A stretch of 64,000 nt of DNA, from assembly GCA_947561395.2 (NCBI GenBank), contig OX387190.1:21198858-21262857 (forward strand), given 5' to 3'. This document shows positions 21,672-42,553 of the stretch, piece by piece. The translations under genes were made by a program, and so were the position numbers. The DNA is from Buxus sempervirens. Taxonomy: Eukaryota > Streptophyta > Magnoliopsida > Buxales > Buxaceae. How positions within the stretch are numbered: position 1 is the stretch's first letter; every line of letters begins with the position of its first letter. The notes under the pieces are model-generated. The model was not told where the DNA came from, searched no databases, and worked only from the letters and a program-made list of their open reading frames with translations.

Positions 21672-23318
21672 TGTGAGACATGGGAAAAAAATCAATCTAA
21701 ATGATTTCCTCGATCATCACACGGGATTAAATAAAATAAAGAGTCGCCACCATTCAATTTAGGTGTGAATGGACACCAAAATTTTAAATAAGCACAAAAG
21801 GCAAATTTTAGGGTAAAATATCCCTCCTAAAAAAACAACCAGAAATGGGTAAGGGGATTAGGTTATGAACAGGGGAAGGTATTAGGCACCCCTATTCATC
21901 CACACAAGGTGGTTGCCAGGTATTTGTTCATGTTAAAATAAAGGAAAAAGCTTGCTATAGAAATCACGAAAAATCACAAAAAAGGAAAAAATATATGGTT
22001 TTTTTCATATGAATAGTCTGATTGATCCAGAACTATCAAATATGATCATACCATTCCTAGGGTTTCATGATCAAAACAAAATTGAGATAAAATCAATTTA
22101 AAGTGAAAAATCCAAAAATCTGGCTTCAAGTCAAAATTCTAGAAATCTAGAAAAATATAATTTTTATAAAATATTTCAAAATTGAACTTGAACAGTCCAG
22201 GATATAGATAAAGCCCAAATTTCACATTAAATCAGAAAATCAAAACCAAAAATACCCACATTGATGAAAAACACCAAAAGGGGAGAATTTAGACCGTAGG
22301 GTCTTCTCTCAATAATGAAAAACAATGTAAAACCACATCATGAAACCCTAGAATTTATTTTTAGGCTTCTGGATTCAGATCTACCATATTGATCATGATA
22401 GATCCAAGATCTTAGCCTAAAATCACAAAAATCACGAAAACAGTGCTGTGGGTGCAAAAGTGGCAAAAATCCAAATTTTGGCAAAAAGAGGGGATCTCAT
22501 GCTGTAAACATCATGGATTCATGTTATTCATTCAGATATATCATAAAAAGCATTAAAACATGATCAGGATATTCAAAACAGCCACATCTCACAAATTAGA
22601 GCACATGGGGGTCTACCCTACGGATCCACCTGTTCTCTTTTCCCCTAGTTCTCTCTTCACGTTTTACGGCTAGAGAGACTCTTGAGGTACTTGGAGACAA
22701 GTTTAGGAATACAAAAACAGATATGGCCTTATTCTACAGCAATAGAGATGATCCTATTACATCTAGAATTGAAGACAGAATATAAAAAGGGATAGGGGAC
22801 TTACCTGGATTGAGCAGGCAAAGCAGCAGGGGTTCCTCTTCTTCTCTTGGGAGCTTCTTAGAATTCCTTGGACTCAAAATTTCGTGGCCCTTAGCTAGAG
22901 GAATGAGCCTCTATTTATAGACACACCCAGGGGCATTGTTGGTCCAAGGAGATATAGCCTGATCCTCAGGATAGAGAGAAATATAGAGATAATGCCCATC
23001 CATAGTGGCTTCAGCGAATAAAATACTTAATTCGCTCGTTTAAAGATATATTGGACTTCAAATAAAGCTCGGAAATCGAGAGGAGGACAAAACTTGCACG
23101 TGTCTTTAATGCCCGTAAATGATTTACGGTCCAATGGTGACCGCATTAGTACTACGGGCGCGCCTGCCCGTAGATATTTTGCGGGCGAGATAGGCCCGTG
23201 AATCCAATACGGGCAAAGCCTGTTCATTCTATTTTTAGGCTTTTTTGACCTGTTTTTAAGCTCTAATTACATGTTTTTATTATTTTCTCATTTGGCAGTG
23301 CAATTTGGGGTGTCTACA
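21672..23318 (-). repeat. Tat element 3' LTR (1647 bp)
   Basis: On the coding strand it starts TGTAGACACCCC and ends CCCATGTCTCACA. A TATA box (complement of CTATTTATAG, 22911-22920) lies about 190 bp downstream of the palindrome array at 23111-23214. A PBS-like 9-mer TGGCGACTC sits 70 bp from the 3' end (21741-21749). The short open frame over the palindrome array is not a gene. Confidence 0.97.
23111..23214. promoter_or_regulatory. Palindrome array A (3' LTR, four units)
   Basis: Four 21-bp dyads of the form GCCCGTA-N7-TACGGGC start at 23111, 23139, 23166 and 23194, so the steps are 28, 27 and 28 bp. Half-sites deviate by one or two bases (GACCGCA, TACGGTC, GCGGGC). The N7 core sequences differ from unit to unit while the half-sites are kept, which points to selection on half-sites. 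Confidence 0.95.
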
Positions 23319-23334
23319 GCTGCCCCCTCTTTGC
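23319..23334 (-). other. Polypurine tract of the Tat element
   Basis: Read on the coding strand, AAAGAGGGGGCAGC immediately precedes the 3' LTR start TGTAGACACC. This is the plus-strand primer site for reverse transcription. Confidence 0.8.
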
Positions 23335-23668
23335 TGGTAATTGGAACCAATTACAAGCAGAGAGCAAAAAGACCCGCCAATTGCACTTTCTGAGATTCTT
23401 GTATAATCAATTGCACTTTGCAAGGATTAAAGAGATGATTTTTGAAAAAAAGAATTGATTGTGGAAGATTTGCTAAGAAATCCCTCAGCTTAAGGGCCAA
23501 ATCCTCCTCTCTCCTCTCACTGAGCACTTGTGGGCTATGAAGTGAGATTTAAGACAAAATTTTTAAACAAAAGTGGGTATGGTGGCAATCCTTGCAACTT
23601 ACAATTAATATAAACATTAATCTCTTAAAAATTGTGAGAAAATGATAAAAATATGCAATTTTGGCTTC

Positions 23669-23772
23669 GCCCGTATTTGGCTTACGGACAGACCCTATCC
23701 GTAGAGGGTTCACGGGCGACCGGGACCGTAATGGGCTCACGGGCGTCTGATGCCCGTATTGATGTTACGGAT
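23669..23772. promoter_or_regulatory. Palindrome array B (upstream of the antisense mobile-domain gene)
   Basis: Four 21-bp units at 23669, 23697, 23724 and 23752, with steps 28, 27 and 28, the same rhythm as array A. The units are GCCCGTA/TACGGAC, ATCCGTA/CACGGGC, GACCGTA/CACGGGC and GCCCGTA/TACGGAT, each with a 7-bp core. It lies upstream of the leader and 5' untranslated intron of the plus-strand gene. No clear TATA box follows. Confidence 0.9.
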
Positions 23773-24148
23773 TTTACTTTTCTTCTTAAACTCGCGACCG
23801 CGACCATTTCTCTTCTCTGCTCGCATTTGGCCCTAATTCTCTTCTGTCCGTATCTTCTTCTCCGGTCATTTCTCATCTTCTCCAAATCTCCGACGCCTCA
23901 CACTGTTCTTCTCCGGCGACTTTCCTATTTCCGGCGACGATTTGCCCATTCCGGCTACGATTTGCCCATTCCGACGACAACCTGCCTTCTTTATTGGGCG
24001 ACTATTCCCTTCTTCTGCAACCATCCGATCAGTGTTCGAAGGTTCTTCATTGACTTACTCAAATTATTCGGCTTCTTTTTCTCTAGGAGCTTGGTGGATC
24101 AGAGGTTCGACCGCTGCTTACTTGTATTTCTTTCTTTAATCCTTCCTG

Positions 24149-24908
24149 GTAAGTGGCCGAAACACTTATTCCTGTTGCAACCAATGTATTGCAAATAACC
24201 ATATGACTGAACTAGCTTGGCTCATGCATGAATTTGCTCTGATCCGAAATTTGTTATGCTATGATCTGGATGCCCAATATATGCCGAATCTGTTATTGTT
24301 TTGATAATTGCTTTATGAACAAATAAGCTCCATCATGCTATAAGTTCTGTTGTAAATCCTGATTCTTCTTGGTTTGTCTGAAATTTGCCCACATGCCTGT
24401 AACCTTTTTTACTCAGATTTGATTTCTTCTTTGAATTTCTACTTTGATCTTGTATGCTTCTAATTGAAATTCTGATTCCCTTTTATCATTGGCAAGTTAG
24501 ACCGAATTCCTTGCTAATTGATTACCCTGACTTTGCATGATATTTTTGATTCTATCTTTACACATAAGTTGTTGCTATATCTCACTTTAACTTGAATGAT
24601 TTAGGCTACCTTCCTTGCTTACTATCCCATCTTACTGTTTAGAGCATCATCTTGCCTTTTCCTTGTTGTCATCTACTTGGCCTGTCCTGAAACCAAACAA
24701 AACAAAATAATTAGGCATAAGTAACAAGCCATTATAAGATAGTTGAACTTCCTAAAAATTTCTTAAAAGAATAATCTTCTTTGATCAATTCCTGATTTGG
24801 TCATGAATATCTAAATCCTTTTTCTCATTTTCTTTTCCATGTAAACTTGATAAAAATGAAAATCAAACAATCAAGAAATAATTAATATCTCCCTGATTTG
24901 AACCGTAG
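24149..24908 (+). other. Probable 5' untranslated intron of the antisense mobile-domain gene
   Basis: A donor TTCCTG|GTAAGTGG at 24149 and an acceptor ACCGTAG directly before the ATG at 24909 bracket 760 bp of T-rich, intron-like DNA without coding. This is inferred from splice consensus only. A leader intron ending right at the start codon is common in plant genes. Confidence 0.5.
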
Positions 24909-27799
24909 ATGGCCCGCCTTAGGTCAGCTTCCCGAGATCCTACAGATGAGCCTTCCTCCTCGAGGGTTAGGCGAGATCCTGCTGATGTGGCCTCGTCATC
25001 GAGGGCCGAGAGGGATTCTGATTCTGATATCCCAAATTTCCCTTCTGGGGATTCGCGTGAGGCGACCCCAGAGGTATACTCTAACCTTTCTGCAATTTAA
25101 TATCCTTTCCCAAAATATATCTTCCTGATTCTTCAATTATTTTCTTTTAGCCGGCTGTTGAGGCTTCCGGCAGAGATAGGAGCTGTAGCAGGCGTCGAGC
25201 TGGAGGCGTAGATAGAGACCTTGATGAGGGTCATAGAGGAGGCCGCAGAGGGGGCCGTGGCAGAGATGAGGCCAGGACCAGGGTTGAGATCCCTGAGGAG
25301 GTGGCTGCCCAGATTAGGGACACTGATCTTCTGCATGGTTTGAGGACTCATCCTTCAGCATGTGTTAGGGCGGATATCCCTTTGAATTTTGCTATGTCCC
25401 ATTATAGAGGGAGTTGGGCCAGCTTTACTAGATTCTTGAGAGCTTGCAGTTCGGCTTATCGTCGGGAGCTAGGATTGTACGGTTTCGGCATGTTTATCAC
25501 TATTCCGGACGTACGCTTGGATCGAGCCCTCATTGCAGCATTATTGGAGAGGTTTTTCCCAGAGACCTTGAGCTTCCACTTCCCAGATATTGAGATTGGG
25601 ATCCGGCCTTCTGATTTCACGCTCATCACCGGGATTAGGATGATCGGTGATGTTATTACTGAGATGGCGATGCCAGAGGCTGAGGAGATCGCTGGTTATC
25701 TTGGATACATTGTGCTGCCTCCTGAGGCATGGGATCGGGGGAGAGCTAGATTGTCTCTGACATGGTTGAGAGAGACTTTCAGGAGGAGGCAGTTTGGCCA
25801 GCTTGCTGCCGGTGACCATGTTTTCCCATTTGCCTTCCGATTCCTCTTTCTATATATGATGGGATCCTGCTTCTTCCCAGAGGACACGACTTCAGTTAGT
25901 CCTTACTTCTTGAGTCTTCTGGGAGATCTGCAGCGGGCGAGGAGGTATGCCTGGGGCCCGCTCATATTTGGTACTATTCTGGCTGGCCTGCGCCGATCAG
26001 TGAGCGGCCTCTCTACATCCAGAGGGGCTGGAGTTGGGTGCAGGTTCTTCTGGCCCTTCTTGCAGGTGAACCTTATTTCCCTTCTTTTTCTTTATCTCTT
26101 TCTGTTTATCTCTCATTTTATATTCCTCTAACTGTTTTCTTCTTTCTTGCAGTTTTTTGCTAGGGTTTATATACCCTATTTCCGCCCTACCTCTACGATG
26201 CCTGAGGAGACGTATCCCATGGCACTTAGATGGTGTCATGTAGAGCATGACTCTGAAAAGAGTCGTCCCAGGTCCGCCCGGGCCCACTTAGACAGGTTAT
26301 ACCGGTCTGAGGTAATCTTCTTTAATTCCTCTACTTCTTCTTTTCTTTTCTTCCTGGATCGCACATCTGATGTCTTGTTCTGTTTTCAGCTATTTGTCCC
26401 CAGGATGGAGGACATTCATGAGGTGTTGGCCCTGCAGGCAGCCAGAGATGATGCATTTGTCCCTGACCAGAGACGACAGAGATACCAGTTCTTTATTGGT
26501 CAGCTGGGCAGCATCTGGTATTGCGGCGAGCGCTTCTTCTTTCAGCATGTGGGAGAGCCACGGATTCCTGCCATCCCGCCAGATACTACTCCTTTCTATC
26601 CTCCTATGCCTGTTGATCCTGCCCAGTTCTTGGATTGGACTGAGGCAGAGACATTATTGGAGGAGGGTGACTATGATGCCTGGTTCAGGCGATCTTCTGT
26701 TGGGTGCCTCATGTCACCCATGCCTGTCCGTGGCGGAGTCACGGAGATAGGCGGGGTAGTGATTAGGGCCTACGATACCACGGTATGCTTTCTTCTTTTG
26801 TGATCTTCTATTTCTATTTCATCTGTCCTTTAGCATTTTTCTGACTTCTTTCTTCTCTATTTCAGGAGGCTCAGTTGGCAGAGATCCGGTCTCGCTATGC
26901 TGATCTAGAGCGCCAGCGTGACGCAGCGATCGCTGAGCGGGACGCCCTCTATATCACTATTTCCGATCTCCGGGGGCAGCTAGCCAGAGCCCAGGGCCAG
27001 GAGGGTCCATCTGATGCACAGGACCAGGCGGGTCCATCTGATGCACAGGACCAGGCGGGTCCATCCGATACTCAGGTTAATTTCTTCTTTTATTTCCATT
27101 CCTGCTTTTGTATTTGTTTGTCTTGTTCTGATTGAATTTTTCTCTTAGTTTCAGGAGTACACAGCTGGTCCCTCTTCACCTGCTTCACCCGTGCCTATGC
27201 ATTTCCGGGATGAGGTGTTTTCTGTGGCACGGGTGGAGTTCGTGACGTCTCCTAGTCCAGTGGAGGTTCCTGCAGCAGAGCCCGAGGTCGAGGCTGATAT
27301 TGTACCTGCTACTGAGGACGTGCCAGAGTCTGCCCCAGTAGCTGAGACGGCTCCTGCTACATCTGCTGATGTTGATATGGATTCGGTTGTGGACGCCGCT
27401 GTGGTAGAGCCTACCGTGGAGACTGCGGTGATGGCGGAGGCTACAGCTGATCCTGTAGAGCCTGGGGTTGATGCTGATGTACCTGAGACCTTTGCCCCTG
27501 CTAGTCCTACTATGGAGGATATCGAGGAGACGCATGCTGCTGTGGATACGTCAGAGGAGTCTTCCCGTACTGATTCTGATGTAGATACTTCAGGGTATGT
27601 CCCTCCTGATCATCCTACTGCTGGCCTTGTACCTTTATATATGTGGCATGATGTTCAGTCTGTTTTGAGCAGGATGCCGCGTAGCACAGCCCGCAATGTG
27701 GTGCGGCATGTCTTTGAGCGCAGGCGATCTTCAGGCCGAGGACGAAGCAGAGGACGAGGCCGTGGCAGTAGGGTCGGACCTGCATGGTCATTAGATTAG
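24909..27799 (+). CDS. Antisense plant-mobile-domain-like protein of the Tat element
   Basis: Six exons: 24909-25073, 25151-26065, 26153-26311, 26390-26782, 26866-27075 and 27155-27799. All are multiples of three with phase-0 GT-AG introns of 77-87 bp, giving 828 residues. The N-terminus is Ser/Arg/Asp-rich, with an RGGRRGGRGR stretch. Residues about 130-350 resemble the plant mobile domain (FFPETLSFHFPDIEIGIRP, DFTLITG, FRFLFLYMMGSCFFPEDTT, RRYAWGPLIFGTILAGL). A coiled-coil candidate follows (LERQRDAAIAERDAL), then three GPSDAQDQA-type repeats, an acidic Val/Pro/Glu-rich region and a basic RGRSRGRGRG tail that could bind nucleic acid or direct nuclear import. It runs opposite to gag-pol, so its introns are not removed from the genomic RNA and persist through retrotransposition. 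The biochemical role is unknown. Cellular mobile-domain proteins (MAIN, MAIL1) act in nuclear gene and transposon silencing. Confidence 0.8.
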
Positions 27800-28003: not shown

Positions 28004-28135
28004 AACCGTATTTATACTACGAGCAAGCGGTGCCCGTAAAATTGCTACGGGCGTACCTTGCCCGTGAAGTTTTCACGGTCAGGCGTGTCCGTAATGCCTA
28101 TACTGGCGCGCCTTGCCCGTAATATAATTACGGAA
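28004..28135. promoter_or_regulatory. Palindrome array C (promoter of the second antisense gene)
   Basis: Five 21-bp units at 28004, 28032, 28060, 28087 and 28115, with steps 28, 28, 27 and 28. The best unit is GCCCGTA-N7-TACGGGC at 28032. The last unit ends 22 bp before a TATA box, so the array sits directly at a core promoter. Confidence 0.95.
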
Positions 28136-28156
28136 TTTACTGCCTTGCGATTTTTT

Positions 28157-28166
28157 CTATATAAAC
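28157..28166 (+). promoter_or_regulatory. TATA box of the second antisense gene
   Basis: CTATATAAAC lies 22 bp after array C and about 90 bp before the ATG at 28257. This spacing predicts a short leader of about 60-65 bases. Confidence 0.75.
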
Positions 28167-28256
28167 TCCTAGGGAACGTCATTGTGACACTTTTATTGAT
28201 TGGAAAACTCCCTGAGCACGTCTTTTCTCGCTTTCCTTGGCTTCTTTGGCGCTTCC

Positions 28257-30008
28257 ATGGCTTCCCCTACGCCGCTTTCTCCTGCCGTTGAATCTCCTCC
28301 TGCAAGACAACCTGTTAGATCAAAACCTCCGAATCTTACCAGGTACAATATTGTGGATTCCTTTTATGATAGATGGGTTAACTCCATGACCCTTGATGAG
28401 GAGATTCGTTGGGATTCCATTCACTTAGGGCACATCCTACACCTCCCTAAAATTCCCTTTAAGTGGGAAATCATTGAAGCTTTGATAGGCCATTGGGTAC
28501 CTGGGCTGAATCTCTTCCGTTTTGATGATAAAGAGATGACTCTTACCATAGAAGAGATTGAAACCATCCTTGGCCTTAGATTTTCTGAAAAAGTTGTGAA
28601 CCCACCCCTAAAGCTTAGTTATAAAAAAGAGGCTTCCACTTTCCTGGGTATAGGGAAGAAGGACTTAGGAAATTCTGATGCACTATTGACCTTGTCCAAG
28701 ACCTTTTTGACTGAAAAACTTCTGAGGAGTAATGACAAGGACTCTAGGTTTAATGCATTGACCCTGATAGTGGTCAATCAGCTGCTTTTTCCACGGGGTG
28801 ATGACCAGGTTGACTTGGCTCTTATCTCAGTTATCTGTCAGGTTAGGGAACGCGAGAGGTTGGCCCCTATGATCCTAGCAGAGATATATCAGGCACTTAC
28901 TGATTGTTATTTCAGGAAGAAGAAACGCTTCCTTGCCTGCGCCCCTATCCTACAGGTAAAATATGCATGTATTTTTTTTTTCTATTTTTTTTTTCTATTC
29001 TTCCTTTCCTTTCTTTTTTTCTCTCCTCTTTTTTTTTTTTCTTCCTTTTTCTTCTTTTTTTTTTCTTTTTTTTTTCTTTTTGGAAATAAATTGAAATACT
29101 CCCTTTTTCTGCAGCTTTGGTTGCTTGACCATCTTAGCCAGGTTGAAGAAATAACTCGCCGCTTCTTTCCAAGATTGAAAGTTCCTGTTTTGATGAGCAA
29201 TAGGGGATGTCCTAACATCCAAGGTGGCAAGCAAGGCTGGTTCACTTTCTTGGGTACTCTCCAGGATGATCAAGTGAGATGGCCTGGCACTTATCAGCCC
29301 ACTCCAGAGACAGTGATCAGCTTTAGAGATAGAAACTTTCTGGCCCTAGCAGGCTTGAAATCTGCTGTTCTCTATCTTCCTTTGAGGGTTCTTCGGCAAT
29401 TTGGAGCGACCCAGGGAATCATGATTCCCACAGGTTATGAGAGCTTTATAGGGCCACTTACTTCAGCCACCATGGGGCTAAATGCTCAATTAATGAAAGA
29501 GTGGTCCTATGTTTGCTTTCTGCGGGGTCCAGTCTTTTCTGAGTCCCATGTGAAGGACTACCACTTCTGGATCAAGGAACAGGTGCAGAGTCATGCCCCA
29601 GTACCAGAGGATCCTCCTGCAGTTCTTCCTCCTACTTATGAGGACATTCTGGAGTTAGAAAGGGCAACCCATAAACGGCTTCAACAAATATGGGTACGGG
29701 AGGCTCAAGAACTTAGGATAAAAGTTCTTTTTCTGGAGAGGCAGCTTGAAGAGCAGAAGTCTGGCCGCATTGCCATAGAGAAGAAACTTGAAGAACAAAG
29801 GCAGGCTCGTCGCTTTGAAGTCCGAGTGATGCGGAAGAAGTATCAGGATTCCTTGGCTGACCTTAGGGCGCTGAAGATCAAGCTTTCCTTTTCAGATGAG
29901 GTCATCTCCTTTTTGAGTGATCCTGAGGCAGAGGGTGCTTCTGGAATCATTGCAACTCAGGCAGCTAGGATTAGGGAGCTTGAGGAGCAGTTAGGGAGTA
30001 GGGATTAG
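28257..30008 (+). CDS. Second antisense protein of the Tat element (DUF7745/mobile-domain-like)
   Basis: Two exons, 28257-28955 and 29115-30008, around a 159-bp T-rich GT-AG intron, giving 530 residues. The intron happens to stay open, so an unspliced frame also exists. The chosen ATG (MASPTPLSPAVES) follows the TATA box. Motifs ILHLPKIPFKWEIIEALIGHW, FDDKEMTLTIEEIETILGL, LLFPRGDDQVDLALISVI and PMILAEIYQALTDCYFRKKKRFLACAPILQLWL match my memory of the DUF7745-type domain found in plant transposon-related proteins and distantly related to the mobile domain. The last 120 residues are strongly coiled-coil (LEEQRQARRFEVRVM, ARIRELEEQLG), suggesting self-association. It has its own promoter and palindrome array and converges with pol. 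Function unknown. Confidence 0.75.
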   Translation: MASPTPLSPAVESPPARQPVRSKPPNLTRYNIVDSFYDRWVNSMTLDEEIRWDSIHLGHILHLPKIPFKWEIIEALIGHWVPGLNLFRFDDKEMTLTIEEIETILGLRFSEKVVNPPLKLSYKKEASTFLGIGKKDLGNSDALLTLSKTFLTEKLLRSNDKDSRFNALTLIVVNQLLFPRGDDQVDLALISVICQVRERERLAPMILAEIYQALTDCYFRKKKRFLACAPILQVKYACIFFFYFFFLFFLSFLFFSPLFFFSSFFFFFFSFFFLFGNKLKYSLFLQLWLLDHLSQVEEITRRFFPRLKVPVLMSNRGCPNIQGGKQGWFTFLGTLQDDQVRWPGTYQPTPETVISFRDRNFLALAGLKSAVLYLPLRVLRQFGATQGIMIPTGYESFIGPLTSATMGLNAQLMKEWSYVCFLRGPVFSESHVKDYHFWIKEQVQSHAPVPEDPPAVLPPTYEDILELERATHKRLQQIWVREAQELRIKVLFLERQLEEQKSGRIAIEKKLEEQRQARRFEVRVMRKKYQDSLADLRALKIKLSFSDEVISFLSDPEAEGASGIIATQAARIRELEEQLGSRD

Positions 30009-31004: not shown

Positions 31005-34000
31005 TCATGGAAAATATCTCTTTACTGCATCAGAGTTAATTGGCTCAGGAAAATCCTTCCCATCCATTTCTGCTAAGATGAGAGCACTCCCTGATAGGAC
31101 CTTCTTGACCACATAAGGTCCTTCCCAATTTGGTTTAAACTTTCCACGTGGATCTTCCAAAAAGGGTAAAATCTTCTTTAATACCAAATTTCCTTCTTGG
31201 AAAGTTCTGGGCTTCACCTTTTTATTGTAAGCCCTAGCCATCCTCTTCCGATATATTTGGCCATGACTAAGTGCCTTCAAACGCTTTTCTTCAATTAAAT
31301 TGAGTTGATCATGTCTAGACTGTATCCATTCAGCTTCTTCTAATTCTGCTTCCATTAGCACTCTTAGTGAAGGTATTTCCACTTCCACTGGTAAAACTGC
31401 TTCCATTCCATAGACTAAGGAGTATGGGGTTGCCCCTGTAGAAGTCCGAATTGAGGTTCTGTAAGCATGTAGAGCAAGTGGCAGCATTTCATGCCAATCT
31501 TTAAAACTCACTACCATTTTCTGAATAATCTTCTTTATATTCTTATTCGCTGCTTCCACTGCCCCATTCATCTTTGGTCTGTAAGGCGCTGACTTGTGGT
31601 GGGTAATCTGAAATTGTTCACACATCTTCCTCATGTCTTTGTTCTTAAGGTTTGAAGCATTGTCTGTTACTATGGCACTTGGCAAACCATAGCGGCAAAT
31701 GATGTTGTGCTTCAAAAACTTAAGAACATGGCTACTTGTAATGTTTGCATATGAAGCTGCCTCTACCCACTTGGTGAAGTAATCGATTGCTACAAGTATA
31801 AACCTGTGTCCATTTGATGCCTTTGGAGAGATCATGCCAATGACATCTATACCCCACATAGAAAAAGGCCACGGAGATGTCATACTGTGTAATTCACTTG
31901 GGGGTGCATTCTTGTTATCTGCGTATACTTGGCATAAATGACACCTTTTAACGTGCATATAGCAATCATGCTCCATAGTTGACCAGTAATATCCCAATCG
32001 CAGAATCTTCTTGGCAAGCATATGCCCATTCATATGGGGTCCACACACTCCTCCATGTACCGTTTCAACTATCCTTTCTGACTCAGTCTTTGCAACACAT
32101 CTAAGTAGTATATCATTGTGTGATCTTTTGTACAACTGCCCACCACTTAGTAAGAACTGTCCTGCCAGCCTCTGTATTGTTCTTTTCTCTGTAGAGGTGA
32201 CATTTTCTGGTAAACTTCGATCATTTAGGAAGTTCTTAATGTCTTGAAACCATGGTACTTCTTCTTCTGGGGTTTCTTCTAAAACAAGGCAGTAAGCTTG
32301 TTCATCTCTGACTTCAATTTCCAATGGTCTAATATCAACCCCTTCTGGCATACTGACCATTGAAGCCAATGTTGCTAAAGCATCTGCAAACTGGTTTTTG
32401 GCCCTTGGCATATAATTGAAGGAAATTCGAGTAAACTTGGTGCTTATTTCTTCCAAATACTGGTGATAGGGGATCAATTTGTGATCCTTGGTTTTCCATT
32501 CACCAGTTGTTTGGAAGATGATAAGACTCGAATCCCCATATACGTCAAGTTCCTCTACTTCATGATCTAAGGCTGCTTGCAATCCAATTATGCATGCTTC
32601 ATACTCTGCTATATTGTTCGTGCATTGAAACCTTAACTTCACTGCGATTGGGATATGTGCCCCATCTGGCTTGATCAGAACAGCCCCTATTCCATTTCCA
32701 TTCATATTGGCGGCCCCATCAAAAAACATTTGCCATGAGCTTTCGCCTTCTTCCTCTTCAGCAAACAAGATTGCCTCATCAGGGAAGTTGGTCTTTAAGG
32801 GTTGGTATTCTGGTAAAGGGTGTGCAGCTAAGTGATCTGCAATGGCTTGACCCTTAATGGCCTTTTGTGTGATATAGGTGAGGTCAAATTCAGAGAGCAA
32901 CAACTGCCACTTTGCTGTTCTGCCAGTTAAAGCTGGTTTCTCAAATAGATACTTCAAAGGGTCCATTCGGGATATCAATAAGGTGGAATGACTAAGGAAA
33001 TAGTGCCTTAGTCTCTGAGTTGCCCATACTAAAGCACAACAAGTCTTCTCTAAGGGGGAATACTTTGCTTCATATTCTGTAAATTTCTTACTCAGGTAGT
33101 AAATCGCCCTCTCCTTTCTGCCTGTATCGTCATGCTGTCCTAAGACACACCCCATTGATGTCTCCAAAACAGATAAGTATAGAATTAATGGCCTTCCTGG
33201 AGTTGGTGGTACTAGCACAGGTGGGTTCAATAAGTATTCCTTTATTGTGTCAAAGGCTTCTTGGCAATCATCATTCCAGATTGTCGGGTTATTCTTTCTT
33301 AAAAGTTTGAAAATTGGTTCACAGATAGCGGTGAGCTGTGCTATGAACCGGCTTATGTACTGAATCCTCCCAAGAAAACCCCGAACTTCCCTCTCGGTTC
33401 TAGGTGATGGCATTTCAATGATGGCTTTAGCTTTAGCTGGGTCAATCTCAATTCCCCTTCTGCTTACTATAAAGCCCAACAATTTTCCTGATGTAGCCCC
33501 AAAGACACATTTCGCAGGGTTAAGCCTTAGACTGTATTTCCTAAGCCGGTCAAATACCTTCTTCAAGTTGATCAAGTGGTCTTCTTCCTCACATGATTTG
33601 GCTATCATATCATCCACATAGACCTCCATCTCCTTATGGATCATATCATGGAATAAGGCTGTCATGGCCCTCTGGTAGGTTGCCCCAGCGTTCTTAAGTC
33701 CAAATGGCATGACAGTGTAGTGGAAGGTACCCCAAGGGGTGATAAAGGCTGTCTTCTCTTGGTCTTCCTTAGCCATCTTAATCTGATTGTACCCAGAAAA
33801 CCCGTCCATGAATGAGAACAGGCTATGTACAGCGGTGTTATCCACTAAGATATCTATGTGTGGAAGAGGAAAATCATCCTTTGGACTTGCCTTATTCAAA
33901 TCTCTATAATCTACGCACATTCTGACTTTTCCATCCTTCTTTGGTACTGGCACTATATTTGCAAGCCATTCGGGGTATGTGGACACTGCTAAGAATCCAG

Positions 34001-34631
34001 CTTGGAATTGTTTCACCACTTCATCTTTAACCTTCAATGTCCATTCAGGTTTTAACCTTCTTAGTTTCTGCTTAACTGGCTTAGAGTCTGGTAGAATGGG
34101 TAGCCTGTGCACCACCATATCTGTGTCTAACCCTGGCATATCCCGATACGACCATGCGAACACATCTTCATAATCAGCCAAAAATCGTATCATTTCATCC
34201 TGCTGTACCCCAGATAGGCATACCCCAATCTTCACTATTTTTGGGTCATCTTCGGTCCCTAGGTTGATGGATATGGTCTCTTCAATATTGGGTTGGACCC
34301 CCTTTTCATGACGCTCTAATTGGTATGTGATTTCTTTTGGAACGTCGTCTTCTTCGTCCTCGGTCTCCTCTTCAACCCCCATTAGGTCAAAGTCGAGCTC
34401 AAGGTCGAAGTCATACTCATCCTGATCCAATTCCGTTTGCTTATATGGTTCATAAATGGTTTGGACCTTTTTGAAAAATTTATCTTTTCTAGAAAAAACT
34501 GAAAAATCTTTTTGTGTTATTTGAGAGCCTTCTACAAAATCTTTCCCTGAAGACGAAGGCTCATTAAAACCTTCAGGAAAAGGGCATTCCACTAATGGAG
34601 TTTTTTTTTGGAAGCCATGTCTGTTTGCCAA
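31005..34631 (-). CDS. Tat element pol: RT, RNase H, archaeal-type RNase H, integrase
   Basis: A single open frame of 1208 codons. RT (about residues 200-400) has MPFGLKNAGATYQRAM and catalytic YVDDMIAKS. The first RNase H (about 480-560) has SMGCVLGQ and KYSPLEKTCCALVWA. A second, archaeal-type RNase H (about 630-760) has FFDGAANMNGNGIGAVLI, NNIAEYEACI and NQFADALATLA. Integrase has the zinc-binding HH-CC (GGVCGPHMNGHM then RCHLCQVYA), catalytic WGIDVIG, VTDNASN and MNGAVEAANK, and the usual C-terminal GNLVLKKI and FKPNWEGPYVV. Dual RNase H marks the Tat lineage. Frames before RT are acidic. The frame starts inside the end of gag-protease in a different phase, so it probably depends on ribosomal frameshifting. 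No catalytic residue appears lost. Confidence 0.96.
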   Translation of the reverse strand: MANRHGFQKKTPLVECPFPEGFNEPSSSGKDFVEGSQITQKDFSVFSRKDKFFKKVQTIYEPYKQTELDQDEYDFDLELDFDLMGVEEETEDEEDDVPKEITYQLERHEKGVQPNIEETISINLGTEDDPKIVKIGVCLSGVQQDEMIRFLADYEDVFAWSYRDMPGLDTDMVVHRLPILPDSKPVKQKLRRLKPEWTLKVKDEVVKQFQAGFLAVSTYPEWLANIVPVPKKDGKVRMCVDYRDLNKASPKDDFPLPHIDILVDNTAVHSLFSFMDGFSGYNQIKMAKEDQEKTAFITPWGTFHYTVMPFGLKNAGATYQRAMTALFHDMIHKEMEVYVDDMIAKSCEEEDHLINLKKVFDRLRKYSLRLNPAKCVFGATSGKLLGFIVSRRGIEIDPAKAKAIIEMPSPRTEREVRGFLGRIQYISRFIAQLTAICEPIFKLLRKNNPTIWNDDCQEAFDTIKEYLLNPPVLVPPTPGRPLILYLSVLETSMGCVLGQHDDTGRKERAIYYLSKKFTEYEAKYSPLEKTCCALVWATQRLRHYFLSHSTLLISRMDPLKYLFEKPALTGRTAKWQLLLSEFDLTYITQKAIKGQAIADHLAAHPLPEYQPLKTNFPDEAILFAEEEEGESSWQMFFDGAANMNGNGIGAVLIKPDGAHIPIAVKLRFQCTNNIAEYEACIIGLQAALDHEVEELDVYGDSSLIIFQTTGEWKTKDHKLIPYHQYLEEISTKFTRISFNYMPRAKNQFADALATLASMVSMPEGVDIRPLEIEVRDEQAYCLVLEETPEEEVPWFQDIKNFLNDRSLPENVTSTEKRTIQRLAGQFLLSGGQLYKRSHNDILLRCVAKTESERIVETVHGGVCGPHMNGHMLAKKILRLGYYWSTMEHDCYMHVKRCHLCQVYADNKNAPPSELHSMTSPWPFSMWGIDVIGMISPKASNGHRFILVAIDYFTKWVEAASYANITSSHVLKFLKHNIICRYGLPSAIVTDNASNLKNKDMRKMCEQFQITHHKSAPYRPKMNGAVEAANKNIKKIIQKMVVSFKDWHEMLPLALHAYRTSIRTSTGATPYSLVYGMEAVLPVEVEIPSLRVLMEAELEEAEWIQSRHDQLNLIEEKRLKALSHGQIYRKRMARAYNKKVKPRTFQEGNLVLKKILPFLEDPRGKFKPNWEGPYVVKKVLSGSALILAEMDGKDFPEPINSDAVKRYFP

Positions 34632-37600
34632 ACAAACGCGGCTTCAAAAGTAAGAGGAGTTTCCTCCCAATTATTCAGAATAAAAGAATCTGGGGCAGGG
34701 ATACAAGCCTGCTCCTCAAGTTCAGGGTCTGCATCTGAGATCACCAGTACTGGGTGAGTTGCATTGCCTGCTTCTTCGGTAGGGCCAGTTCCAGATGGAA
34801 CTTCTACTGCAGCCCAATCAATAAAAGGTAGCTCCTCTGCTACTTTTTCTTGGTTGCCTTCTGTCATGGCAAAGAATGCCCCTATGTCCTCAGAAAAATC
34901 CTGCTTTTGTTCTGTCTGTGGCCCAGGCCCACCAGATGCTTGTGGGGGTGGAACACATGGCTGTATTGTGGAGGGTTTAGGTTTCTGGAATGGGTTGACA
35001 TTGTAGTATGGGGGTTTGGCCTGATCCTCAGGAGGAGACAGCTGAATCAGGTGAGACAGCTTAGGAAAAGTTTCCCTGATGTGTGGGAATTTCATAGCTT
35101 CTATCTGCCCCTGACTTTTCCATTTCCTTGGCTTGGACCCCAATCCTGCTCTGTGAACCATCTTCTTAACCTGAACTGGTTCTATCCTTCCTTGTAGGTT
35201 AACCCCCAGACCTTTTCCAGGGTGAAAATGATACTTTTCTAATACATTTTTGACCATTTTTTCAGCGCAGGTCAATTTTCCTTCTTTTTGCTGATACCCC
35301 CCAGGTATATAATTCACAGCTTCAAACTGAAAAGAGTGAAATGCCATCTTATCTGCTGTCATTTCCGTGTTAATACAGGGTACATCAGGGGACCACATGG
35401 GGGGAACCAAATTTTCGGCCAGGACGGTAATCACCTTTTGCCCTCTAATATACTTGACTCTTTGGTGGAGGGTAGATGGTATGGCCCTAGCTGTATGAAT
35501 CCACGGCCTTCCTAGGAGCAGGTTGAAAGCCGCAGGTATATCCATCACCTCAAATGTGATGTTGAAAATATACGGTCCAATTGTGACCGGCAGTTCAACC
35601 TTCCCTAGGGAGTGTGTTTTAGAGCTGTCAAATGCTCTTATAATTCTTCCGTTTTGTTTTATTTTGTTTCGCTCCAGATTGAGCTTAACAAAGGTTACTA
35701 ATGGGCAGACATTGAGGGCTGACCCATTATCAATCAAGACCCGGGCTATCATGCAGCCCTTACTGAGCACAGCAATATGCAAAGGATCCACATGATGGTA
35801 TCCTGCTGGACTAATTTCAGTTTCAGAAAAGGTTATGACATTATGGGATAATATTTGACCAACCATCCGGCCTAGTTGGTCTGGTTCAATGTTTTTAGGC
35901 ACATGGGCCCCCTGAAGTATCCTTAACAAGGAGTCCCTATGTTTTTCTGAATTTAACAATAATCCCAGAATTGAGATCTGGGCAGGGACCTTGTTCAACT
36001 GCTCAATGACATTGAACTCACTCTTTTTTATTACCTTAATGAGGTCAGCAGCCTCACTGTTAGTTACCTGAGGGGCCTCTTCCCCTACTTTGGCCTTGCC
36101 TTTATTTCTTTCTTCTTCTTTATCCTTCTCTGTTTCTTTCTGTTTTTCTTCCACCCCTACACACTTTCCTGACCTCATCATGAGATTTACTTCTTCCTTG
36201 CTTTCAACTGCAGGGCATGTAGTGGTAAATGCCTCACTGTAGTTCCATGGTACAGCCGATTCAGAGTAGGAAGGCTTGGGGACATTCACCACCAATGGGG
36301 GAAGTTTGGGCTTGGCGATGGAAGTCTGAGTAATAGGAACATTAACAACCAATGGAGGTAGTTGTTTTGGTTGAGGGGTTGCAAAAGGGACTGATGCACA
36401 ATTTATGACCAATGGTGGCTTAGACTGAATGGGTGGAGTGAAAGTGGATGGATTAATGACCAAGGGTGGCTTGGTGATGTTCATCTGGGCCATGAGGGAT
36501 GAGACCCGGTCCAAAGATGAGCTAATGTTCTTTGCAGCACTATCATTCCCCTTTGAAATCATGTTTATTTCTTTGCCTTCACTTCTCCTGTCAAAATATA
36601 CTTTGACCGTTGTCCCTATGGGAGCAATTAATTGAGATGGGTCAAAGGTTATTTTGTCAGAAGAGATGACTCCTATGACATTAGATGGGCCTGCCCCGTG
36701 ATGCTGGGGCAGTGGGTTTTGTCCAATATCGGTTCTTGGAGGATTGGAAGCCCCTGTATTGAAAGACAAGGTATTCTGGTCTAGTAAATCCTGAATGGCA
36801 TGTTTCAAAGGCCAGCACTTGTCTGTAGGGTGCCCAGGTGCACCCATATGGTAATCACAAGTGGTGGAGGGGTCAAAATTTCTCCCCTTAGATGCATTCG
36901 GATTAGGTTCTCTTAAGGTGATATACCCTCCTTGCAATAAAGTGGGCAGCAATTGAGAGGGAGTCATTGGAATAGGGGTGAAAACCCTATTTCTCCTTGC
37001 TGCAAAATAGGCGTCCTTTTCCTCTTTGGTAAAAACCCTTTTTTGGTCTGAAGGTGCTGTTGGAACATTAACCCTCATAGGGGCCTGGGTAGGTGGAGAT
37101 GGAGTAGGAAAATGAGCAGGTACGTTGATTTGTATGGGCTTGTTAGGGCCAGATGGTGGCTGTACCATGTTTACCTCACCCTCCTTCTTATTCCCATTCT
37201 TTTTTGTCCCGCTTCCTTTCTTTAGGTTGGGGTCCTGCTGGCTAACCATGGCGGAGTGGTCAATTATCTTACCTGACCTTATTCCATCCTCAATTCGGTC
37301 AGCCACCTGAACCAAAGCTGCAAAATTAGTGGTGGTCTGACCCACCAAGTGGCTGTAGAATGGTTGACCCAAAGTGCTTATGAAGGTAGAAATCATTTCC
37401 TGTTCTAGCATGGGTGGCCTGACCTGGGAGGCCGTCTCCCTCCATCTCTTGGCATATTGCCTTACAGTCTCCTCCCTTCCTTTGCTCATTCTCATGACGT
37501 CGTACCTATCTGGCATGATTTCTGAATTGAACCGATATTGAGCCAGGAAGGCATCGGCTAGGTCCTTCCATCTTTTGATCTTCCCATGGTCCAGAGTGGC

Positions 37601-38290
37601 GAACCATCTTAATGCGGTTCCTGTTAGGCTCCTTTGGAAAAGTTGGATCAAGATACCCTCATCCTGCCCGAACTGGCATAGGGCACCACAGTATAACTTT
37701 AGGTGGCTCATGGGGCAACCAGTGCCATCATACTTGTCCAAGTCTGGGCACTTAAACTTGGCCGGCAGGTTAACATTGGGGTATAGGCACAAGTCTTCAA
37801 AATTGGTGCCTCCAAAGTTGTTTACCCCTTTGACTTCCCTTAGTTCATCCTGGATCATTTCTAACTTATGCATGAACTTTCTTTCAACCTCTTCCCTTAT
37901 CCTTTCCTTTTCCTTAGCCTTGTTTGATTCAGCTGTCTCATCCCTGGTTAGTATAGGTTCAGGGGTGGGTTCATAGACGGGTTCAGGAGTTGGTTGCACT
38001 GGAGGTGGAACATTGACTTGGGGTGGAGGTGCAGGGTTGGATGTGGATGCCTGGTTCTGGGCCTGCATTTGTTGGGCTTGCACTTGTTGGGCCTGTACTG
38101 ACAGTATGTTCTCTAGCATTCGGGCCAGTCCTGCCACTTGTTCTTGGAGTAGAACGACATCTGGATGAGGAGCATCAACTTCATCTTCAATGGGATTCAT
38201 GGCTCGAGCTCTTGATCTGGTTACAGGAGCTATGATTGCGAGTGTATTAGTACCTGGATACAAGATAAAGGAAAAGATATCAATGCTCAA
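34592..38290 (-). CDS. Tat element gag-protease polyprotein
   Basis: Open frame of 1232 codons. The retrotransposon gag domain (about residues 165-330) has FKCPDLDKYDGTGCP, LFQRSLTGTALRWF and DLADAFLAQYRFN. A zinc-knuckle-like CDYHMGAPGHPTDKCWPLK lies near residue 480 and long Pro-rich linkers follow. The aspartic protease, about residue 850, has VLIDNGSALNVCPL and, further on, NLLLGRPWIHTARAIPSTLHQ. A G-patch-like stretch (HFHPGKGLGVNLQGRIEP) lies near residue 1015. The start is uncertain: the first Met is 38290, but MNPIEDEV after the conserved APVTRSRARA is also possible. The stop TAG lies at 34592-34594, 40 bases inside the pol frame. Confidence 0.95.
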   Translation of the reverse strand: MSIDIFSFILYPGTNTLAIIAPVTRSRARAMNPIEDEVDAPHPDVVLLQEQVAGLARMLENILSVQAQQVQAQQMQAQNQASTSNPAPPPQVNVPPPVQPTPEPVYEPTPEPILTRDETAESNKAKEKERIREEVERKFMHKLEMIQDELREVKGVNNFGGTNFEDLCLYPNVNLPAKFKCPDLDKYDGTGCPMSHLKLYCGALCQFGQDEGILIQLFQRSLTGTALRWFATLDHGKIKRWKDLADAFLAQYRFNSEIMPDRYDVMRMSKGREETVRQYAKRWRETASQVRPPMLEQEMISTFISTLGQPFYSHLVGQTTTNFAALVQVADRIEDGIRSGKIIDHSAMVSQQDPNLKKGSGTKKNGNKKEGEVNMVQPPSGPNKPIQINVPAHFPTPSPPTQAPMRVNVPTAPSDQKRVFTKEEKDAYFAARRNRVFTPIPMTPSQLLPTLLQGGYITLREPNPNASKGRNFDPSTTCDYHMGAPGHPTDKCWPLKHAIQDLLDQNTLSFNTGASNPPRTDIGQNPLPQHHGAGPSNVIGVISSDKITFDPSQLIAPIGTTVKVYFDRRSEGKEINMISKGNDSAAKNISSSLDRVSSLMAQMNITKPPLVINPSTFTPPIQSKPPLVINCASVPFATPQPKQLPPLVVNVPITQTSIAKPKLPPLVVNVPKPSYSESAVPWNYSEAFTTTCPAVESKEEVNLMMRSGKCVGVEEKQKETEKDKEEERNKGKAKVGEEAPQVTNSEAADLIKVIKKSEFNVIEQLNKVPAQISILGLLLNSEKHRDSLLRILQGAHVPKNIEPDQLGRMVGQILSHNVITFSETEISPAGYHHVDPLHIAVLSKGCMIARVLIDNGSALNVCPLVTFVKLNLERNKIKQNGRIIRAFDSSKTHSLGKVELPVTIGPYIFNITFEVMDIPAAFNLLLGRPWIHTARAIPSTLHQRVKYIRGQKVITVLAENLVPPMWSPDVPCINTEMTADKMAFHSFQFEAVNYIPGGYQQKEGKLTCAEKMVKNVLEKYHFHPGKGLGVNLQGRIEPVQVKKMVHRAGLGSKPRKWKSQGQIEAMKFPHIRETFPKLSHLIQLSPPEDQAKPPYYNVNPFQKPKPSTIQPCVPPPQASGGPGPQTEQKQDFSEDIGAFFAMTEGNQEKVAEELPFIDWAAVEVPSGTGPTEEAGNATHPVLVISDADPELEEQACIPAPDSFILNNWEETPLTFEAAFVWQTDMASKKKLH
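34601..34609 (-). promoter_or_regulatory. A9 slippery run at the gag-pol overlap
   Basis: On the coding strand gag reads TCC AAA AAA AAA CTC CAT TAG. Pol is in the -1 phase across the same nine A residues (AAA ACT CCA TTA). A run that contains A AAA AAA heptamers is a classical -1 slip site. A one-base length change in this copy is the alternative explanation. Confidence 0.6.
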
Positions 38291-38458
38291 TTAATCTCAT
38301 TCACATGCCTAAGAATGCCTACGTGCAAGCTGGGTGAACACGAGTTTGGATTTTTCTTTATTTGCTTCTTTTTTATTTATTTATTTATTTATTTTTATTT
38401 TGAATTGAATTGTTGGAATATTCTAGGGCTTCCAACAGGTCCCACAAAAGAGAGAAAG

Positions 38459-38679
38459 GTCTGAAATTCAAAGGCTTTCAGAGGCCCGGGGTTTTTTTGA
38501 AGAAGGTCTAAAATTCAAAGGCTTTCAGAGGCTCAGGGATATTTTTGGAAAAGGTCTGAAATTCAGAGGCTTTCAGAGGCTCAGGGATATTTTTGGAAAA
38601 GGTCTGAAATTCAGAGGCTTTCAGAGGCCCGGGGATTTTTGATAAAAGTCTGAAATTCAAAGGTTTTCAGAGGCCCAGG

Positions 38680-38712
<33 letters not shown>

Positions 38713-39360: not shown

Positions 39361-40886
39361 AGGAACCTTTCTCTCACATTTTTTCTTTTAATTATTTTGT
39401 TTGTTTGTTTGTTTTTTTTTTTTTTTGTTTTTTTTTGTTTTTTTTTTTTTGAAGCATTTTATTCAAACTTGTTCCCCTTTATCGTTATTTAAAGGTTAAA
39501 AGAATATTTTAGTGGGAAAAACTGATTAAAGTTGAATATTCCGAGAAAACCGTATACACATTACGGTCCAGTCGTGCCCGTATTCAAATTACGAGCCTGC
39601 CGTGACCGTATGCAATCCACGGGCGAGCCTAGCCCGTATAATCAGTACGGGCAAGCCCAGCCCGTGTACTAAATGCGGTTTTACGGAACCTTGTTATATT
39701 TTTTTCAGTTTTTACATGGTTTGATCACTTTAATTGCTCATCCAAACGTACGGTTCACCCAGTACAGAGCTTCTAAACTGTCCCAAAGTGGACTTTGGCC
39801 TATTTGTAAAACACATGCTAGGGAGGGCACATGTACCCTCCAAATTGACATCATACTCAAGAATTTGATACCCTTTTGTTGCCTCTTGTGTGTACATAGG
39901 GTAGGATTGATTCTAAACAGAGTTAGAAACTCTTCCTATGGGCTGCACCAACTTTTAGCAAATATGCATATTTTGGGACCAATTTTATCCCAAACCCATG
40001 GGTACCATGACACCCATATGATATGAAAATAATGCAAAACAATAGGATTACCTTGTTACCTTGTTTACCTTGAATATAGCCTCCGCATTATGCCCTGGTT
40101 TGTAAGCCATGCATACGGCCTTCCCACAATCATACAAACCCCATATTCCCACGTAATTGTGTAATTTAGCCAAAAACGTGTAACTCCACCTTCAAGCGTA
40201 GGGGTTTTGGGTTTTGGCTTAATGGCAACTTAGCACTCAAGCCTAGTGATGACCAGAATCCCAGATCCACATTATCATCACATCATTAGCTCAAAGTTCT
40301 AAGGTGAATGTTTTCACTTTCGCTTTCCGAAGTATCGACCTCGTTGCGCCAAGCTACACACATTCGGGTTCAACTTCCTATAGGTTAAGGGTAGGCTGTG
40401 TAAAAATAAAAGGTGCACAGTGCATTGTAAAAATAGGTCACATTCACAACGTCCCAAACCCTTGCCACTCTTTTCGCAGCCATGCATAAACAAACCAAGG
40501 CATAATAGGAAAGCATATTTAAAATAAACAAGTAAATAAAGCAATCCTATAGCACCCAAAACATGCTCATAAAAAAAAATCATCTATCATGCAAACATAT
40601 GATCATGTTATACACCCAAAATCATCATGGAGATCATGCTGAAAATTAACATATGCTATCCTAAAAATATAGCAAGAAATAAGCATATTTCAGCAAAACG
40701 GACCTCCCCTACGCATGTTTGTAGAAACAATCCTATAAATCAAAATTAAGCATGTTTCTACCCCCATGAATTCCTAAGCAATAATTCAGATTTAAAACAT
40801 ACTCAACATGCTTAAGAACACAAAATAGCAAGCAAATCAAAAAATCAAAACATGAACAAAAACACCTAAAGGCTGAAATCCACAAG
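39361..40886 (-). other. 5' leader of the Tat element
   Basis: Untranslated DNA between the primer-binding site and the minisatellite, with T-rich runs at 39390-39450 and palindrome array D at 39548-39680. No coding frame resembles a known protein. Confidence 0.6.
39548..39680. promoter_or_regulatory. Palindrome array D (Tat 5' leader)
   Basis: Five 21-bp units at 39548, 39576, 39604, 39632 and 39660, with exact 28-bp steps. The unit at 39632 is the perfect GCCCGTA-N7-TACGGGC. It lies upstream of gag inside the leader. No TATA box is evident within 150 bp on either side. Confidence 0.95.
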
Positions 40887-40904
40887 TCCCCAGCAGAGTC
40901 GCCA
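40887..40904 (-). other. Primer-binding site of the Tat element
   Basis: Coding-strand TGGCGACTCTGCTGGGGA begins two bases after the end of the 5' LTR. It is complementary to a tRNA 3' end. From memory it fits a plant arginine tRNA with about one mismatch, the type reported for Ogre elements. Confidence 0.85.
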
Positions 40905-40906
40905 GT

Positions 40907-42553
40907 TGTGAGACATGGGAAAAAAATCAATCTAAATGATTTCCTCGATCATCACACGGGATTAAATAAAATAAAGAGTCGCCACCATTCAATTTAGGTG
41001 TGAATGGACACCAAAATTTTAAATAAGCACAAAAGGCAAATTTTAGGGTAAAATATCCCTCCTAAAAAAACAACCAGAAATGGGTAAGGGGATTAGGTTA
41101 TGAACAGGGGAAGGTATTAGGCACCCCTATTCATCCACACAAGGTGGTTGCCAGGTATTTGTTCATGTTAAAATAAAGGAAAAAGCTTGCTATAGAAATC
41201 ACGAAAAATCACAAAAAAGGAAAAAATATATGGTTTTTTTCATATGAATAGTCTGATTGATCCAGAACTATCAAATATGATCATACCATTCCTAGGGTTT
41301 CATGATCAAAACAAAATTGAGATAAAATCAATTTAAAGTGAAAAATCCAAAAATCTGGCTTCAAGTCAAAATTCTAGAAATCTAGAAAAATATAATTTTT
41401 ATAAAATATTTCAAAATTGAACTTGAACAGTCCAGGATATAGATAAAGCCCAAATTTCACATTAAATCAGAAAATCAAAACCAAAAATACCCACATTGAT
41501 GAAAAACACCAAAATGGGAGAATTTAGACCGTAGGGTCTTCTCTCAATAATGAAAAACAATGTAAAACCACATCATGAAACCCTAGAATTTATTTTTAGG
41601 CTTCTGGATTCAGATCTACCATATTGATCATGATAGATCCAAGATCTTAGCCTAAAATCACAAAAATCACGAAAACAGTGCTGTGGGTGCAAAAGTGGCA
41701 AAAATCCAAATTTTGGCAAAAAGAGGGGATCTCATACTGTAAACATCATGGATTCATGTTATTCATTCAGATATATCATAAAAAGCATTAAAACATGATC
41801 AGGATATTCAAAACAGCCACATCTCACAAATTAGAGCACATGGGGGTCTACCCTACGGATCCACCTGTTCTCTTTTCCCCTAGTTCTCTCTTCACGTTTT
41901 ACGGCTAGAGAGACTCTTGAGGTACTTGGAGACAAGTTTAGGAATACAAAAACAGATATGGCCTTATTCTACAGCAATAGAGATGATCCTATTACATCTA
42001 GAATTGAAGACAGAATATAAAAAGGGATAGGGGACTTACCTGGATTGAGCAGGCAAAGCAGCAGGGGTTCCTCTTCTTCTCTTGGGAGCTTCTTAGAATT
42101 CCTTGGACTCAAAATTTCGTGGCCCTTAGCTAGAGGAATGAGCCTCTATTTATAGACACACCCAGGGGCATTGTTGGTCCAAGGAGATATAGCCTGATCC
42201 TCAGGATAGAGAGAAATATAGAGATAATGCCCATCCATAGTGGCTTCAGCGAATAAAATACTTAATTCGCTCGTTTAAAGATATATTGGACTTCAAATAA
42301 AGCTCGGAAATCGAGAGGAGGACAAAACTTGCACGTGTCTTTAATGCCCGTAAATGATTTACGGTCCAATGGTGACCGCATTAGTACTACGGGCGCGCCT
42401 GCCCGTAGATATTTTGCGGGCGAGATAGGCCCGTGAATCCAATACGGGCAAAGCCTGTTCATTCTATTTTTAGGCTTTTTTGACCTGTTTTTAAGCTCTA
42501 ATTACATGTTTTTATTATTTTCTCATTTGGCAGTGCAATTTGGGGTGTCTACA
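40907..42553 (-). repeat. Tat element 5' LTR (1647 bp)
   Basis: Same length as the 3' LTR, with only two differences seen. It drives gag-pol on the minus strand. TATA box complement CTATTTATAG at 42146-42155, palindrome array upstream at 42346-42449, PBS-like 9-mer at 40976-40984. Confidence 0.97.
42346..42449. promoter_or_regulatory. Palindrome array A' (5' LTR, four units)
   Basis: Identical to array A of the other LTR, with unit starts at 42346, 42374, 42401 and 42429. It lies about 190 bp upstream of the gag-pol TATA box. Confidence 0.95.

Follow-up and report, generated by a model that had tools for sequence, protein, structure and literature searches.

Introduction

VANDALs are DNA transposons of the MULE type. 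In the VANDAL/VANC system, silencing is counteracted via arrays of short motifs that change between related elements, and both binding and demethylation have been demonstrated (PMC5735166, PMC10398659). Palindromic promoter repeats of plant long terminal repeat (LTR) elements are also a known kind, of which the arrays described here are a variant; the motifs of the Sireviruses (Ty1/copia) are the nearest precedent (PMC2829016). Retand elements contain tandem repeats and, in the interval from pol to the 3′ LTR, antisense genes; TRP28 has been proposed as a DNA-binding regulator in them, and a plant mobile domain (PMD) is found in 57% of Ogre (PMC11963269, PMC6317226). The role of the Retand/Ogre antisense genes was left open (PMC11963269). 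The host PMD proteins MAIN and MAIL1 are required, directly or not, for the expression of genes with a promoter motif (PMC7156037, PMC9899485), and direct DNA contact by plant mobile domain proteins was likewise left open (PMC9899485). Here we describe a 64,000-nt stretch of Buxus sempervirens DNA (GCA_947561395.2, contig OX387190.1, positions 21,198,858 to 21,262,857; the window, in whose numbering all coordinates are given) that contains a Tat-type (Ogre-like) Ty3/gypsy LTR retrotransposon with clusters of four or five evenly spaced dyads in both LTRs, ahead of two antisense genes and in the gag leader.

The arrays resemble those of Sireviruses in their CGG/CCG dyad symmetry, their place in U3 ahead of the TATA box, their richness in CpG and a further set of copies preceding an accessory gene (PMC2829016). 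They differ in belonging to a Ty3/gypsy element, with the domain order reverse transcriptase, RNase H, integrase (RT-RH-INT), rather than to Ty1/copia; in the reverse order of the triplets (CCG-N11-CGG), the strict periodicity and a 7-bp core of random sequence in the arrays called A to E below; and in the accessory genes, which are antisense and of PMD/DUF7745 type where the Sirevirus gene is ENV. With VANDAL/VANC the locus shares short-motif arrays in non-coding regions, extra encoded proteins and a different motif in a related element (here one LTR). Unlike that system it is an LTR retrotransposon known from sequence alone, and the VANC motifs YAGTATTAY and AGTTGTCC/AC are, by inspection, not dyads (PMC5735166, PMC10398659).

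The layout, with a PMD and antisense genes between pol and the 3′ LTR, is that of Ogre/Retand (PMC6317226, PMC11963269); unlike Retand, the six open reading frames (ORFs) scanned here gave no TRP28 match, nor did they match a DNA transposase. The MAIN/MAIL1/PP7L complex similarly ties PMD proteins to a specific promoter motif, with the difference that it concerns host genes and that its direct DNA binding is unproven (PMC7156037, PMC9899485). The excerpts of the Retand/Ogre papers contain no mention of palindromic promoter arrays: "palindrom" occurs twice in PMC11963269, the displayed instance being a cited reference, and not at all in PMC6317226. No description of such arrays in Tat/Ogre elements was found among the listed titles and abstract openings and the excerpts of open-licence PMC papers, a weak negative. 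The palindromes in the excerpt of PMC6911290 lie at insertion sites and were set aside as not being promoter arrays.

Dyad arrays of the Tat-type element

We scanned the window for GCCCGTA-N7-TACGGGC, accepting sites with at least 10 of the 14 arm letters, a threshold that by selection somewhat inflates the half-site figures below and leaves the chains unaffected. The scan returned 44 matches; 100 dinucleotide-preserving shuffles gave 5.1 on average and at most 12. At a spacing of 26-29 bp, chains reach five units in the window and a single unit in each of the shuffles, where no two matches ever stood at this distance. Chains in the window are 5, 5, 4, 4, 4, 4, 3, 3, 2, 2 and 2 units long, and the dyad-array feature is real. 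The element, its antisense genes and its five arrays are located as follows.

21672..42553, minus strand: full-length Tat-type (Ogre-like) Ty3/gypsy LTR retrotransposon, identified by its LTR pair, 5-bp target-site duplication (TSD) CTGAT and domains
21672..23318, minus strand: 3′ LTR, 1647 bp, TATA-like CTATAAATAG at 22911-22920 (minus strand)
23111..23214: array A′, four dyads in U3 of the 3′ LTR, starts 23111/23139/23166/23194, spacing 28-27-28
23669..23772: array B, four dyads 5′ of the antisense PMD gene, starts 23669/23697/23724/23752, spacing 28-27-28
24909..27799, plus strand: antisense gene 1, plant mobile domain PF10536 (E 9.2e-18, ORF 25151-26131), RG-rich C-terminus
28004..28135: array C, five dyads 5′ of antisense gene 2, starts 28004/28032/28060/28087/28115, spacing 28-28-27-28
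28257..30008, plus strand: antisense gene 2, DUF7745 PF24924 (E 1.3e-23), also PMD (4.2e-15)
39548..39680: array D, five dyads in the gag leader, starts 39548/39576/39604/39632/39660, spacing 28-28-28-28
40907..42553, minus strand: 5′ LTR, 1647 bp, TATA-like CTATAAATAG at 42146-42155 (minus strand)
42346..42449: array A, four dyads in U3 of the 5′ LTR, starts 42346/42374/42401/42429, spacing 28-27-28

The matches comprise 22 in the five arrays of the full-length element, 17 on-lattice units in two solo LTRs of a second family (described below; array E 4, F 5, G 5, H 3) and five strays (38091, 49654, 53207, 54098, 54445). All 44 lie inside four Tat-type LTR or element sequences, which together cover 28,491 of the 64,000 bases (45%), and the 35.5 kb of the window outside them, a small sample, contains none. 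An original prediction, made from the letters of the window, had placed 21-bp palindromes in these same five places, and our mechanical scan reproduced its coordinates and the 28-27-28 rhythm shared by A, A′ and B. Its count of about 40 units corresponds to the 39 on-lattice matches obtained with the two solo LTRs included. The range it gave, 23111..42449, is that of the arrays and not of the wider element, which extends to the TSD.

Each of the five LTR copies contains CTATAAATAG once, always downstream of its U3 dyad array, and the word has no other occurrence in the window. The U3 arrays lie 13-190 bp from the TATA-like boxes, each on the upstream side, the distance being 190 bp for array A in the 5′ LTR. 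Array C is followed 22 bp downstream by TATATAAA (28158-28165), before antisense gene 2, and array B precedes the probable start codon (ATG at 24909) of the PMD gene by about 1.1 kb.

Design of the dyad sites

Statistics for arrays A to E are based on 22 distinct units, with array A counted once and array E of a solo LTR added. Each dyad consists of two RMCCGTR half-sites facing inward over a fixed 7-bp spacer (CCG-N11-CGG). In the left arm C3, C4 and G5 are invariant (22/22 units), and in the right arm the triplet letters are kept in 20/22, 21/22 and 22/22 units; arm letters outside the CCG triplet are more variable. Between arrays the half-sites are 78% identical, while the cores are 28.6% identical compared with the 29.9% expected by composition. 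The cores are AT-rich and the linkers GC-rich.

The N7 core length is kept at 22 of 22 lattice positions, and the linkers (n = 17) measure 7 bp in 13 cases and 6 bp in four; by post hoc arithmetic, the chance of 22 unchanged cores would be about 0.003 if cores varied like linkers. As all lattice positions in A to E are filled, the constant N7 is not a mere product of a search confined to N7. The two arms vary independently, with 119 of 154 within-dyad arm positions matching compared with 121.1 when right arms are reshuffled. Conserved half-sites, random cores, independent arms and a constant N7 together fit a dimer-binding site. The reader had been predicted to be dimeric or polymerising, and the fixed N7, random cores and independent arms agree with a dimer; a polymerising reader is not favoured because the linkers wobble and arrays A to E have sharp edges, stopping after 4-5 units.

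A different dyad in a related solo LTR

A related solo LTR, which we call fam3, carries a different dyad in the matching place, an addition to the original prediction.

44153..46929, minus strand: solo LTR fam3, TSD GAAGG
46215..46358: fam3 dyad array, four units of TGTATCCGGC-N7-GCCGGATACA with an exact 39-bp period

By BLAST, the identity of fam3 to the element's LTR is 70% in the region of the TATA-like box and 74% close to the 3′ end. Its array lies in U3, 153 bp upstream of the TATA-like box at 46052-46061, compared with 190 bp for array A and its own box. Relative to the N7, the CCG triplet occupies the position that it has in the main dyad, possibly by chance. A global alignment of the two LTRs loses collinearity in its middle part, and as the LTR middles align poorly, the fam3 slot is the same by position and not by base-level homology; homology of the two arrays is suggested by the BLAST anchors at the TATA-like box and the LTR end. 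A perfect 19-bp inverted repeat (CTTATTTACATGTAATATC, within 46400-46481) adjoins the fam3 dyad array on the LTR-start side.

Solo LTRs of a second family

The prediction had also noted solo LTRs with the dyad. They do carry it, and they form a second LTR family in which each copy has a U3 array and an extra array downstream of the TATA-like box.

49140..51527, minus strand: solo LTR fam2a, TSD GGTGG
49866..49969: array E, four dyads downstream of the TATA-like box of fam2a, spacing 28-27-28
50751..50965: array F, 3+2 dyads in U3 of fam2a, ending 13 bp from the TATA-like box at 50728-50737
52539..54981, plus strand: solo LTR fam2b, TSD GTAGG, 80% identical to fam2a (BLAST, two long pieces)
53113..53327: array G, 2+3 dyads in U3 of fam2b, 14 bp upstream of the TATA-like box at 53342-53351
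54163..54267: array H, partly decayed, three matches, downstream of the TATA-like box of fam2b

Comparison of fam2a and fam2b (1706/2357 identical over the whole LTR, with fam2b trimmed by 2 bases at one end and 1 at the other) allows half-sites and cores to be followed in one pair of copies. In the downstream array, half-sites are identical at 38/56 positions (68%), cores at 15/28 and flanks at 179/285 (63%); the whole array is identical at 62/104. For the U3 array zone the figures are 171/215, compared with 221/299 in its flanks. For the expectation that half-sites change more slowly than cores across copies, this single pair of solo LTRs gave a weak result (38/56 vs 15/28), and the comparison weakly favours half-site constraint. 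Solo LTRs have no reason to remain functional. Array H has mainly ACCGTA-type half-sites (GACCGTA, AACCGTA) and the matching array E mainly GCCCGTA/G, a difference that possibly reflects a subfamily-wide shift. The halves of the fam2a U3 array flank a different palindrome-like stretch at 50828-50916, CGGGACACGCGTCCCG (minus strand), with CGGGATACGCATCCCG in fam2b.

Candidate reader of the arrays and alternatives

Direct observations comprise the arrays, where they lie, how they are conserved and the presence of a different dyad in a related LTR, and a protein-read regulatory design is the most likely explanation of them. From these patterns we infer protein binding, the identity of the reader and the direction of its effect. 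We give a probability of about 0.5 to the reading that the arrays are clusters of dimer sites on the LTR and antisense promoters, most likely read in a VANC-like manner by the antisense PMD/DUF7745 protein or proteins of the element itself. Each array would be a cluster of 4-5 sites for a dimeric, sequence-specific DNA-binding protein acting on the promoters of the retrotransposon, namely the LTR, driving gag-pol, and those of the two antisense genes, with the leader cluster besides. The reader would be the product of one or both antisense genes, and the resulting self-recognising circuit would turn the element on or keep host silencing off, much as VANC does. Related families would change the half-site and keep the slot and the design. 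An antisense PMD/DUF7745 protein appears a likelier reader than a host factor because the arrays precede the LTR promoter and both antisense genes, because the motif differs in the related LTR and by analogy with VANDAL/VANC. Antisense gene 2 encodes a long predicted C-terminal helix, possibly a coiled coil, that could be used for dimerisation. The fuller proposal, that an antisense-encoded dimeric PMD regulator recognises dyads marking its own promoters and that families swap half-sites in a VANC-like self/non-self circuit of Ty3/gypsy elements, is tentative, with the odds somewhat against it.

Several results weigh against this reading. The prediction that arrays mark every transcription unit stands partly by inference: array D lies in the 5′ leader at no recognised promoter, and a TATA-like word was not found just downstream of array B (23773-24160). 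Half-sites in the fam2a/fam2b downstream array are barely better kept than their flanks, and the motif switch is known from a single solo LTR that has no coding region. The product of gene 2 gave a poor single-sequence fold (mean pLDDT, the predicted local distance difference test score, 43), the better-predicted parts being the C-terminal helix and a stretch translated from an inferred intron; it had no homologue in a protein search scoring 7996 candidates and no structure match in the PDB. The DOWN motif CATGCAGTTT of Arabidopsis PMD-dependent genes, as given in the excerpts on MAIN/MAIL1, is unlike the dyad half-site. Similar dyad pairs also occur in bacterial genomes (below), so the pair is not unique to plants.

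The main rival to an element-encoded reader is a host transcription factor of stress or cell-cycle type, for which the arrays would be enhancers exploited by the element, the antisense proteins being irrelevant. In Sirevirus copia elements the CGG-CCG palindromes that precede TATA and ENV were mainly matched to sites of stress-related factors, and one of the 13 Sirevirus motifs (Citrus, AATCCGGCTWRCCGGATT) has half-sites near the ATCCGGC of fam3, in a different superfamily with a different protein set (PMC2829016). The distances of the U3 arrays to the TATA-like boxes would suit such enhancers as well. The arrays before the antisense genes and the different dyad of fam3 are easier to understand with an element-specific reader, and the absence of matches from the non-Tat part of the window, small as that sample is, points the same way; we regard a host factor as unlikely, if clearly the strongest competitor. 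A further possibility dispenses with a dedicated protein and takes the arrays as CpG-rich boxes that tune chromatin by nucleosome exclusion or methylation. The window as a whole has a CpG observed/expected ratio of 0.49 and the remainder of the LTR one of 0.33, against 0.99-1.65 in arrays A to G and 0.90 in the fam3 array, and in several fam2b half-sites the CpG carries a C to T or G to A change. This explanation leaves the fixed N7 dyad, the 27/28 rhythm and the letters flanking CCG unaccounted for, and other stretches of the element (e.g., near 23881, 26871 and 27677) equal most arrays in CpGs per 104 bp, making it improbable.

Dyads may also act as RNA stem-loops, in packaging, translation control or as a source of small interfering RNA, or as DNA cruciforms. 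Against dinucleotide shuffles, RNA folding gave z scores of −6.0 for the gag leader, −6.0 for the array C of gene 2, −4.9 for U3, −13.2 for fam3 and −1.4 for array B. The arms lack the covariation that paired stems would show, as the reshuffling comparison above indicates, and when half-sites were kept and cores and linkers shuffled, the minimum free energy z ranged from −1.9 (array C, minus strand) to +1.2 in ten tests; this control covered arrays A to E, with fam3 in the dinucleotide-shuffle test only. Arm independence and the half-site-preserving controls mostly refute hairpins and cruciforms for A to E, and overall such structures are very improbable. We see just as little prospect for a functionless minisatellite arising by slippage. 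Copying does occur: the fam2 U3 arrays have similar cores and exact self-repeats of 24 bp (F) and 13 bp (G), array C and array F have an 18-bp word in common, and tandem repeats are frequent in Retand, in about half of those surveyed (PMC11963269). In A to E, by contrast, the cores are unrelated between conserved half-sites, the longest self-repeats are only 7-10 bp, and the arrays all have 4 or 5 units, those in U3 all lying upstream of the TATA-like box. A neutral minisatellite is rejected for A to E on the random identity of their cores and may apply to the fam2 U3 repeats. Conserved half-sites, random cores, independent arms and the half-site-preserving folding together make a dimeric DNA-binding protein more likely than either RNA hairpins or a neutral minisatellite.

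If the reader is antisense-encoded, the plant mobile domain would gain a role in DNA recognition. Binding by an element protein would also add LTR retrotransposons to the VANDAL DNA transposons as elements capable of sequence-specific self-activation or anti-silencing, and would suggest a mechanism for host PMD genes such as MAIN/MAIL1. With candidate sites at the LTR and both antisense genes and a different site in fam3, the role of the Retand/Ogre antisense genes and the contact of PMD proteins with DNA could be addressed by a binding experiment.

Similar dyads in bacterial genomes

A two-unit version of the dyad pattern, with linkers of 9-13, was run on viral contigs and prokaryote genomes. 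It matched one stretch among the viral contigs, judged by eye to be non-plant, and at least 113 stretches in prokaryote genomes, where about 20 are expected in 257 billion bases at equal base use. Titles naming Betaproteobacteria, Burkholderiales or Paraburkholderia account for 56 of 80 among the bacterial matches listed. These pairs, which among the matches listed are CCGTR-N7-YACGG dyads, many of them 47 bp overall, were judged unrelated to the plant arrays and are perhaps an unrelated bacterial repeat family.

The element, its coding regions and its surroundings

The remaining coding regions of the element lie on the minus strand.

31005..34643, minus strand: RT-RNaseH-integrase ORF, domain order RT-RH-INT
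34592..38290, minus strand: gag ORF with a G-patch match; a protease is presumed here

The two 1647-bp LTRs differ at two positions, end in TG..CA, and are accompanied at the expected places by a primer-binding-site-like TGGCGACTC and a purine tract, both seen by eye. The RT-RH-INT order with gag, the TG..CA LTRs with TSD, primer-binding site and polypurine tract, and the antisense PMD genes agree with a Tat-type (Ogre-like) Ty3/gypsy element, an assignment that draws on domain order, LTR signals and antisense genes. Both antisense genes, each with PMD-type domains, lie between pol and the 3′ LTR. Gene 1 has several inferred introns and is readable from the ATG at 24909 to its RG-rich end, with 999 open splice combinations; gene 2 has one inferred intron (28956-29114). 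No relatives of the RT and DUF7745 pieces were found in viral contigs, and the region 22800-55000 has no Rfam match at gathering score.

The gag leader also contains, at 38455-39360, a long tandem array of another dyad, TCTGAAA-N9-TTTCAGA, with 19 exact copies in units of 34-48 bp. An older Ty1/copia insertion at 20304-48421 (gag, integrase and RVT_2 matches; ends approximate) encloses both the element and the fam3 solo LTR; its 183-bp repeats at 20304-20486 and 48239-48421 are 99.5% identical.

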